From Planctomycetota bacterium (GTDB lineage: Bacteria > Planctomycetota > PLA2 > JAEUHO01), in assembly GCA_030066775.1 (NCBI GenBank), contig JASJAY010000054.1, forward strand, positions 1 to 36,736: a stretch of DNA of 36,736 nucleotides, read 5' to 3'. Positions 28,917 to 33,290 of the stretch are shown here, one piece after another. A model generated the notes under the pieces. The model was not told the origin of the DNA, searched no databases, and saw only the letters and a list, made by a program, of their open reading frames with translations. Position 1 is the stretch's first letter. The number at the start of each line of letters is the position of its first letter. The translations under genes and the position numbers were made by a program.

Positions 28917-30032
28917 CTAACCCCGGCGGGCCCGGACGCGACCGCGCACGCGGACGAGGATCACCTCCTCGCCCGGCACGCCCGTGTGCAGCTCGATCAC
29001 CTCGTCGTCGAGGCGGCCTTCGGCGGCGTCGGCCGGCACCGTGGCCTCGAGCACCCACAGGCGCTTCTCCTTGTGCAGCGGATCGGGGCCGACCTGCACC
29101 TCGAGCTTGCCGCCGCGCGCGGTGGCGCGCACGTCGGCGAACTCCGTCGTGGCGTCGTTCGGCCTGAACTTGAGGCGCGCCGTGCGGCGGGTGCCCTTCT
29201 CGACGACCCCGAAGTGCATCACCCGCGACTGGATCCACACGCGGCCCACCACGTTCGCCGACAGCGGCAGCTCCATGCGCGCGAACTCGGGATGGTTGGT
29301 GCGCACGAGCAGGTGCGCGGAGTACATGCCGAGCGGCGGCGCCTTCTTGAAGCGCACGTCCACGACGTAGCCGCGCCAGCGGTCGTCCTCCGCTTCCGGC
29401 ACGTACGGCGTGACCTTGGCCTCGAGGGCCTCTTCGTGTCCGGGGATCTCGATCTTGGTGACCTCGAACGGCTTGCCCTTGCCGTCGAACCACTTCACGC
29501 CGAACTGCGCCGTCGGCAGCGAGCCGAAGACCACGTCGCCGAAGCGGACCGCGCCGGGATCGAGGATCAGGCCGCTGACGATCGAGATCCCGAGGCGGAT
29601 CGTGATCTCGCCGCGCGAGCGCTCCTTGGTGACGAGGCGGACGCGCTTCTGGAGCTTGCCGCTGAGCACGCCCGTCTGGAACGAGACCGTGAGCGTGCCG
29701 CTCTCGCCGGGCCCGAGCTCGTCATGGGACAGCTCGACGCGATTGCACCCGCAGTCCGCCTGCGCCCGGATGCCCGCCACGGCCTTCTCGCCCGCGTTCG
29801 TGTACGTGATCGTCGTCTCGAGCTCTTTGTTCTGCCCGACGACGCCGAAGTCGTGCTCGAGGCGGTCCACGGCGAGATCGAGGTGGTGGCCCCGGACCCG
29901 GCCCGGGCGCTTCGCCTCGTCCGCGGGCTTCTCGCCGGACGGCGCCGGCGCCGCGGGATCCTCCTCGGCGCCCACGGGGGCGGCCCCTGCGAGCAGCATC
30001 AGCAGGAGCAGGGCCGGGACCGCGAGACGCAT
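28917..30032 (-). CDS. Exported DUF1573-like protein, paralogue 1
   Basis: This 371-aa protein has a signal peptide (LAVPALLLLMLLAGAAPVGA) followed by a DUF1573-type Ig-like domain: LEHDFGVVGQNKELETTITY, the Cys-Gly-Cys in QADCGCNRVEL, and LGPGESGTLTVSF. Further beta-sandwich repeats fill the rest (YSAHLLVRTNHPEFARMELP, SANVVGRVWI). DUF1573 proteins are exported beta-sandwich proteins with no defined reaction. It is head-to-head with a clear paralogue at 30127 and first in a row with the membrane protein, aguB and aguA. Confidence 0.82.
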   Translation of the reverse strand: MRLAVPALLLLMLLAGAAPVGAEEDPAAPAPSGEKPADEAKRPGRVRGHHLDLAVDRLEHDFGVVGQNKELETTITYTNAGEKAVAGIRAQADCGCNRVELSHDELGPGESGTLTVSFQTGVLSGKLQKRVRLVTKERSRGEITIRLGISIVSGLILDPGAVRFGDVVFGSLPTAQFGVKWFDGKGKPFEVTKIEIPGHEEALEAKVTPYVPEAEDDRWRGYVVDVRFKKAPPLGMYSAHLLVRTNHPEFARMELPLSANVVGRVWIQSRVMHFGVVEKGTRRTARLKFRPNDATTEFADVRATARGGKLEVQVGPDPLHKEKRLWVLEATVPADAAEGRLDDEVIELHTGVPGEEVILVRVRGRVRARRG

Positions 30033-30126: not shown

Positions 30127-31182
30127 ATGCGCGGCGCGCGAATCGCCATCCTCCAGCTCCTCCTCGTGCTCGGCCTGCCGCTGCTCGGTGGCGCCCCGGC
30201 GTCTGCCGAGGATCCGGCCCCCGCGGGCCAGGGCGACCTCGCCTGGGACCGTGTGGAGTACGACTTCGGCAGCGTCGGCCAGAACCAGGAGCTCGAGGCG
30301 GTCTTCACCTACACCAACCGGGGCGAAACCACCGTCTCCGACATCCGCGCCCAGCCCGACTGCGGCTGCTACGGCCTCATGCTCTCGGACACCATCCTGG
30401 GACCCGGCGAGTCGGGGACCCTGAAGGTGCGCTTCCGGACGCTGACGTTCATCGGCAAGGTCCTGAAGCACGCCCGCGTGCAGTACGAGGACAAGGCGCC
30501 GCGCCGCGTGAAGCTGGGCTTGCAGATGACCGTGGACGCCGGCGTCTTGTTGGAGCCCAGCCGCGTCTACTTCGGCGAGGTCGTGGTCGGCACCAAGCCG
30601 CGCGGCGAGATCCACCTGCAGCACCGCGACGGGCGCGGCAAACCGTTCCGCATCACCAAGGTGCACCTGCCGGACGAGGACTTCGAGCCGATCACGCCCG
30701 CGCCGTACACGGATCCGCGCGATCCCAAGTGGAAGGGCTGGACCTTGACGTTCCAGTTCGCGCGCGTGCCGCCCCAGGGCGTGTACTCGAAGCACGCGGT
30801 CGTCGAGACGGACCATCCCGACTTCCCCCGCGTGCGTGTCTCGCTCACCGCCAACGTGGTCGGCAAGGTCTGGATCCAGAAGCCGCGGCTCTTCTTCGGC
30901 CTGATCGCGCGCGGCGAGACGCGCACCCTGAAGACGCTCGTGCGGCCGGCGCTCGGGTCCGGCGTGCGGCTCGGCAAGGTCAGCGCGCGTTCGCGCAAGG
31001 GCGTCTTGAAGACGGAGCTCGTGCCGGTGCCGGGTCGGCCAGAGCACTACACCCTCGCGATCACGCTGCCCGGCAACGCCAAGGCCGGCCTGCTGGACGA
31101 CGTCATCGAGTTGCGCACCCAGGTCGATGGCGAGGCCGTCACGACCGTCGACGTGCGCGGCCGCGTCTTCGAGCGCCGCTAG
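30127..31182 (+). CDS. Exported DUF1573-like protein, paralogue 2
   Basis: This 351-aa protein is a full-length paralogue of the divergent neighbour: signal peptide (AILQLLLVLGLPLLGGAPASA), VEYDFGSVGQNQELEAVFTY, Cys-Gly-Cys in QPDCGCYGLML, LGPGESGTLKVRF, then the same later blocks (YSKHAVVETDHPDFPRVRVS, TANVVGKVWIQ, LLDDVIELRT). The 94-nt space between the two starts must hold both promoters. It is probably periplasmic or surface-exposed. No enzymatic motif was found. Confidence 0.82.
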   Translation: MRGARIAILQLLLVLGLPLLGGAPASAEDPAPAGQGDLAWDRVEYDFGSVGQNQELEAVFTYTNRGETTVSDIRAQPDCGCYGLMLSDTILGPGESGTLKVRFRTLTFIGKVLKHARVQYEDKAPRRVKLGLQMTVDAGVLLEPSRVYFGEVVVGTKPRGEIHLQHRDGRGKPFRITKVHLPDEDFEPITPAPYTDPRDPKWKGWTLTFQFARVPPQGVYSKHAVVETDHPDFPRVRVSLTANVVGKVWIQKPRLFFGLIARGETRTLKTLVRPALGSGVRLGKVSARSRKGVLKTELVPVPGRPEHYTLAITLPGNAKAGLLDDVIELRTQVDGEAVTTVDVRGRVFERR

Positions 31183-32240: not shown

Positions 32241-32708
32241 CTAGAGGGGCTGGACGTCGATGAGGCCGCCGAAGCCGTCGGCGATCGCGCGCACCACGCA
32301 GAGGTCGTCGTCGTCGAAGGCGCCGACCGCGTTCGCGTCCAGGTCGATCTGTCCGACGACCATCCCGCGCGACTGGATCAAGACGACCATCTCGCTGCGC
32401 ACGTCGGCCGCGCACGCGAGGTAGTTCTCGACCTCACGCACGTCGTCGACCAGCTGGTCTTCTCCCGTCGCGATCGCTGTGCCGCACACGCCGGTGCCGA
32501 CGGGGATGCGCGTGTGCTCGGTCTCCGGCCCACGGAAGGGGCCGAGCACGAGCTCTTGGCCGCGCAGCCAATAGATGCCGATCCACGAGGCCTGCGGGAG
32601 CTCCTCCGTCAGAGCCTCCACGAGGGTCGTCCCGAGCACGTCGGGTTCCTGCGTCTCCATGGCCTTGGCCTGGAGCGTGCTGAGCACGGATGACGCGTCA
32701 CAGCTCAT
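32241..32708 (-). CDS. msrC: Free methionine-(R)-sulfoxide reductase-like GAF protein
   Basis: This 155-aa single GAF domain has the motifs of free methionine-R-sulfoxide reductase: SWIGIYWLRGQELVLGPF, RIPVGTGVCGTAIATGEDQL, and VENYLACAADVRSEMVV. C75 and C99 are spaced 24 residues apart, like C94 and C118 of the E. coli enzyme. The position of E. coli C84 is His65 here, so the disulfide relay would use only two cysteines. The enzyme repairs oxidised free methionine in the cytosol with thioredoxin. A generic ligand-sensing GAF protein is a less likely alternative. It lies downstream of the histone-like gene on the same strand. Confidence 0.78.
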   Translation of the reverse strand: MSCDASSVLSTLQAKAMETQEPDVLGTTLVEALTEELPQASWIGIYWLRGQELVLGPFRGPETEHTRIPVGTGVCGTAIATGEDQLVDDVREVENYLACAADVRSEMVVLIQSRGMVVGQIDLDANAVGAFDDDDLCVVRAIADGFGGLIDVQPL

Positions 32709-32738
32709 ACAACGATGGTATCCGAAGCAATTGAAACA

Positions 32739-32761
32739 GGCGCCGTGCGGTGCACGGCGCC
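32739..32761 (-). terminator. Hairpin terminator after the histone-like gene
   Basis: GGCGCCGTGC at 32739-32748 and GCACGGCGCC at 32752-32761 form a perfect 10-bp stem with a 3-nt loop. Read on the minus strand it comes 28 nt after the histone-like stop and is followed by TGTTTCAATTGC, a weak T-rich stretch. It would end the histone transcript before the GAF-protein start at 32708. Confidence 0.6.
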
Positions 32762-32789
32762 CGTTCGAAGCAAGTCCAGTGGACCGGGC

Positions 32790-33008
32790 TTACAGGTCCT
32801 GCGGACGGACCGTACCGCGGTTGTTGGCGCCGCAGCGCTCCACGGCCTTCGCGATGAGGTCGTGCACGCAGGCGTTGACGGCGTCGACGAGGTCGCCCGA
32901 GCAACGGTAGCCGGAAGCCTTGACCGCCTCCTTGACCTTGGAACCGACGACGAGGTTGGCGGCGGGCGCCTTCCGGCTGCGCGCCTTCTTCTTCTTCCGG
33001 GCTGCCAT
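32790..33008 (-). CDS. Bacterial histone-fold protein with basic N-terminal tail
   Basis: This 72-aa protein starts at ATG 33008 with an AGGAG ribosome-binding site 6 nt upstream (33015-33019 on the plus strand). Residues 1-17 form a Lys/Arg/Ala-rich tail (MAARKKKKARSRKAPAA). The rest fits a minimal histone fold: alpha-1 about 23-32 (SKVKEAVKAS), loop 1, a long alpha-2 about 39-60 (DLVDAVNACVHDLIAKAVER), and loop 2 with RGTVRPQDL, comparable to RKTVKAEDI of archaeal histones. It stops where alpha-3 would begin. Short bacterial histones of this kind, such as Bdellovibrio Bd0055, bind DNA. It is likely a nucleoid protein. An A/T-rich stretch upstream and a terminator downstream indicate its own transcript. 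Family call by motif, not by search. Confidence 0.7.
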   Translation of the reverse strand: MAARKKKKARSRKAPAANLVVGSKVKEAVKASGYRCSGDLVDAVNACVHDLIAKAVERCGANNRGTVRPQDL

Positions 33009-33290
33009 GAAACTCTCCTGCTTCCCACGCGCGTTCGGTGGCGAAGGTGGACCTGGGTCATGGGTCCGGCGCGCACCTGTGCGTCGCCATCCATGGCCCC
33101 AAAAATGTGAAAGGAACCGCGCCTAGGGGCGATTCCGGCGTGAATCTACCAACGGGTATCCGGGGGTCGAAAAGAGAAAACGCGCGCCAATTCGCGTGAT
33201 TCTTCAAAATTCGGCACTCTGCGCCCCACTTGACAGCGGGCCGCGGCGGTGCGAACGGCTGGCGCAGGGCGGCGTAACGACGTGGTGTGG

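Follow-up and report, generated by a model that had tools for sequence, protein, structure and literature searches.

Histones of the α3 superfamily are defined by a missing helix 3 (PMC11390915). In bacteria, the face-to-face (FtF) class of these proteins has so far been characterised experimentally chiefly through HLp of Leptospira perolatii, an FtF α3 histone whose tetramers wrap ~60 bp of DNA (PMC12701072). The HLp tetramer is held by R49, N53, and R55, and the R55-D62 pair forms the RD clamp (PMC12701072). The residues that make up the FtF signature have been published (PMC11390915, PMC12701072), and the R/N tetramer pair is absent from the bacterial dimer histone group (Schwab et al.). 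The planctomycete histone described here belongs to this already described FtF class. It confirms the published surveys and does not extend the kind, and it adds a well-conserved, tailed FtF lineage in Planctomycetota that is fixed in a whole class as sampled.

The histone is encoded on the minus strand of the window, the whole 36,736-nt stretch of DNA that was analysed. The ORF at 33008..32790, stop included, specifies 72 aa with the C-terminus RPQDL-stop (MAARKKKKARSRKAPAANLVVGSKVKEAVKASGYRCSGDLVDAVNACVHDLIAKAVERCGANNRGTVRPQDL), and its product is a bacterial histone. The first-pass annotation had described this ORF with its RPQDL end, cysteines at residues 36, 47, and 59, and a Lys/Arg tail, all of which are present as claimed. 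A zinc site formed by the cysteines was considered and rejected, as few homologues keep C47 and no two of the three residues are spaced as a CxxC pair.

An AlphaFold monomer model built from 29 homologues contains helices at residues 22-31 and 40-61 and a one-turn helix at 69-71, with core pLDDT values of ~90 or above. Helix α1 (codons 22-31, 32916..32945, minus strand) carries K24, K26, and K30, which are predicted to contact DNA on the basis of the model, their conservation, and the corresponding contacts of HLp. Helix α2 (codons 40-61, 32826..32891, minus strand) is followed immediately by N62; this residue and R58 match FtF tetramer contacts. The truncated helix α3 (PQDL; codons 69-72, 32793..32804, minus strand) includes the RD-clamp residue D71. 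An α3 of 3-4 residues with a shortened α2 characterises α3-truncated histones, and the modelled helices have this form. The truncation flagged at first pass as unusual is real, with only residues 69-71 helical, but it is the defining trait of α3 histones (PMC11390915, PMC12701072). Homologues end strictly in RPxDL, apart from two (L023 and L024) that have extra residues past the usual C-terminal D-L (HDVLSGM and HDFYAG).

The top Foldseek match is HLp, with an rmsd of 0.6 Å over 55 residues, a TMt of 0.93-0.95, and 45% identity. HLp (PDB 9QT0/9QT1/9QT2; PMC12701072) shares the histone fold, the short α2, and the one-turn α3, and the two proteins align without gaps at 45% structural identity, such that position n here is HLp n-9. 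The HLp residues R49/N53/R55/D62 correspond to R58/N62/R64/D71, and the DNA-contacting K15/K17/K21 to K24/K26/K30. The planctomycete histone differs in having a longer K/R tail, R35 in place of HLp M26, Cys36 in place of the DNA-contacting T27, and L72 in place of F63; the polar tetramer or DNA contacts S52, T56, and T61 of HLp are replaced by A61, G65, and Q70. The hosts also differ, as HU is encoded in the planctomycete and not in Leptospira. HTkC of Thermococcus kodakarensis (PDB 9F2C; PMC11390915) shares the FtF class and the fold (rmsd 1.2 Å), but is archaeal, tail-less, and more distant in sequence. Bd0055/HBb of Bdellovibrio (PDB 8CMP, 8FVX; PMC10627809, PMC11317129) has the α3-truncated fold, the RD clamp, and a similar end point, but lacks the R58/N62 tetramer contacts and the long K/R tail, and has lower sequence and fold scores.

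A short ORF in high-GC DNA, which is rich in spurious ORFs, might be a chance reading frame. For 33008..32790 the probability of this is vanishingly small, and the explanation is already refuted by the homologues, their substitution pattern, the conserved Shine-Dalgarno sequence, and an E 5e-10 match to a crystallised histone. Homologues occur in 48 of the 99 genomes sampled around the source genome and, because dN is well below dS among congeners, this is a real gene. It is under purifying selection: comparisons inside one genus mostly give pN values of 0.04-0.18 alongside pS values of 0.2-0.5, and by the same measure the core is under stronger constraint than the tail. The subclass is decided by scores and signature residues. 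Comparison with Bd0055-type histones had been proposed at first pass, and the superfamily is indeed the same: the fold is shared, α3 is truncated, and Bd0055 is a significant match. If the protein were a bacterial dimer histone of the Bd0055/HBb type, it would bind or bend DNA as a dimer or coat DNA edge-on. The Bd0055 score, however, lies far under that of HLp. When the 72-aa query was compared with the PDB by phmmer, HLp (9qt0) gave an E of 5.2e-10, against 3.4e-4 for Bd0055 (8cmp) and 1.1e-3 for HTkC (9f2c). With the family profile, the scores are 88.1 bits for HLp (E 3.7e-24), 48.3 for HTkC (9.9e-12), and 44.9 for Bd0055 (1.1e-10), making the sequence nearer to an FtF than to a dimer histone (HLp 88 vs Bd0055 45 bits).

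The FtF signature R48, N52, R54, T56, and D61 (HMM numbering) corresponds to R58, N62, R64, T66, and D71 here, and the α1 lysine K16 to K24 (HLp K15). K24, R58, N62, R64, and D71 are invariant in 29/29 aligned planctomycete homologues and T66 is kept in 28/29; these rows were picked because they resemble the query or its locus, a choice that biases them towards conservation, and the signature is retained even in the most distant of them, at 38-43% identity. In the family-profile alignment, Bd0055 has S and D where R58 and N62 are invariant here, and the loss of R48 and N52 (HMM numbering) that is typical of dimer histones is not seen. Since the R58/N62 pair is present here and absent from the bacterial dimer group, the histone is placed with the FtF group; a Bd0055-type dimer is very unlikely and was rejected on signature residues and scores, which together with the PDB and Foldseek matches favour the subclass of HLp and HTkC. 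A doubled DUF1931 pseudodimer was rejected as well, as the protein is a single 72-aa fold with a sub-threshold score. The Pfam models PF00808 and PF09123 score under their gathering cut-offs (14.7 vs 21.4 and 14.3 vs 21.8 bits, respectively).

Sequence, model, and analogy with HLp suggest, with a probability of about 0.88, that the 72-aa protein is an FtF α3 histone of an uncultured planctomycete that forms a tetramer wrapping DNA. If assembly follows that of HLp, it would involve: pairing of two monomers into a handshake dimer; joining of two dimers at both ends via R58, N62, R64, and C-terminal residues into a torus-shaped homotetramer; and sequence-non-specific wrapping of ~60 bp of DNA round the homotetramer. 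DNA contacts are predicted at K24, K26, K30, loop 1, and T66, and the disordered Lys/Arg tail may add electrostatic, non-specific contacts to DNA or between tetramers. The protein is thus most likely a homotetrameric, non-specific DNA-wrapping nucleoid protein with a Lys/Arg tail that adds electrostatic DNA contacts, and by the HLp analogy would organise the nucleoid beside HU. We infer that the histone is expressed and binds DNA; its tail function, promoter, terminator, and abundance are likewise predictions. The source genome contains two HU-family genes, and the presence of HU means that a dominant architectural role of the histone is not implied. These HU genes, and the observation that certain histone-fold proteins of eukaryotes lack DNA binding (PMC10627809), would fit a protein that serves mainly in roles other than genome packaging, such as a locus-specific regulator or a low-abundance protein-protein adaptor. 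Such a role appears unlikely given the K/R tail, the conserved DNA-contact lysines, the conservation through the whole class, and the fact that no specific partner gene is linked to the histone throughout the order.

The N-terminal tail (codons 1-17, 32958..33008, minus strand) contains 8 K/R and 0 D/E and has no helix in the model, where residues 1-20 have pLDDT values of 55-66. With homologue start codons set by ATG and Shine-Dalgarno sequence, most homologues have tails of 9-31 residues with 3-16 K/R. Variation is greater in the tail than in the core, so tail composition rather than sequence is apparently retained. Four homologues (L018, L021, L022, and L026) have very short, 5-residue acidic N-termini (MADNE, MSEKE, MSDKE) and no basic tail; the tail is therefore inessential to the family. 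The tail noted at first pass is real and disordered, yet it is not the oddity it was taken for, as positively charged tails of non-conserved sequence are common in bacterial FtF histones (PMC11390915, PMC12701072). Basic-tailed and short acidic members in one family offer a natural comparison for the function of prokaryotic histone tails.

The gene is likely transcribed as a separate unit, presumably from its own promoter. This part of the first-pass annotation is supported as probable by the conserved Shine-Dalgarno sequence, the AT-rich upstream DNA, a -10-like element, and a downstream hairpin. The Shine-Dalgarno AGGAG (33015..33019, minus strand) is a good ribosome-binding site, as had been claimed; written as 'GGCAGGAGAG', it is nearly unchanged across family members. 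The AT-rich intergenic stretch at 33100..33220 (minus strand) does stand apart from its surroundings, at 52.9% GC against 70.8% for the whole window and within the lowest 0.03% of 121-nt windows, although it is still 53% GC. Here, an extended -10-like element, TTGGTAGATT (33143..33152, minus strand), is a candidate promoter with no clear -35 and a predicted start near 33136; it aligns with CTGGTACAGT, CTGCTACATT, and similar sequences in relatives. Upstream of the gene, TGNTANNNT occurs in 12 of 31 homologues; shuffled sequences gave 1.6 on average and at most 5. As the homologous sequences are related and not independent, the enrichment is suggestive of a promoter. A promoter scan found no standard sigma-70 promoter. 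The leader (fold z -2.3) has no Rfam match to a structured RNA and, among relatives, no conserved sequence besides the Shine-Dalgarno and -10-like elements.

The downstream hairpin (32735..32765, minus strand) is a candidate terminator with a 14-bp stem, 93% complementary, and a 3-nt loop. Folding of 32725-32795 gives an MFE of -38 kcal/mol (z = -5.7), a value reached by no shuffle, and similar hairpins follow the gene in most relatives examined. The hairpin had been called a perfect terminator; it is strong, but contains a single G-U pair, and the T run after it (TGTTTCAATT) is poor, so that it was passed over by the terminator scan. The same scan marked a weak terminator-like hairpin with a T run at 33180..33197 (minus strand), possibly the terminator of dcd; this hairpin does not exceed the chance level (shuffle mean 0.9; fold z -0.15).

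By profile search, the histone is present in 17/17 sampled genomes of the class and in 98 of 195 near-complete Planctomycetota genomes; all named records among the relatives are Planctomycetota MAGs. The upstream neighbour, dcd (dCTP deaminase, TIGR02274), lies near the histone in just one other genome, differently arranged. Downstream, a GAF-domain protein (32241-32708, minus strand) resembles free methionine-R-sulfoxide reductases (YebR 1vhm, E 1.5e-21) and keeps the GVCG and LAC cysteines. Two divergent paralogous proteins at 28917-30032 (minus strand) and 30127-31182 (plus strand), ~42% identical to each other and presumably DUF1573-like, also lie close to the histone gene in other family members. 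Several genomes of this family share the histone-GAF-DUF1573 order, which is absent from the order and phylum loci read; a conserved functional partner gene was accordingly rejected.

Cys36 lies in loop 1, at the DNA-contacting position of HLp T27, and is found in 18/29 planctomycete homologues. This position, together with the GAF neighbour resembling free methionine sulfoxide reductases in part of the family, raises the distant prospect of a redox-tunable DNA grip, a regulated form of bacterial chromatin. No second histone was found in the source genome. Elsewhere, two or three divergent histone genes occur in some genomes (G011, with C418:2834-3052, L066; G072, G021, G087, G186, G206, G218, and G028).
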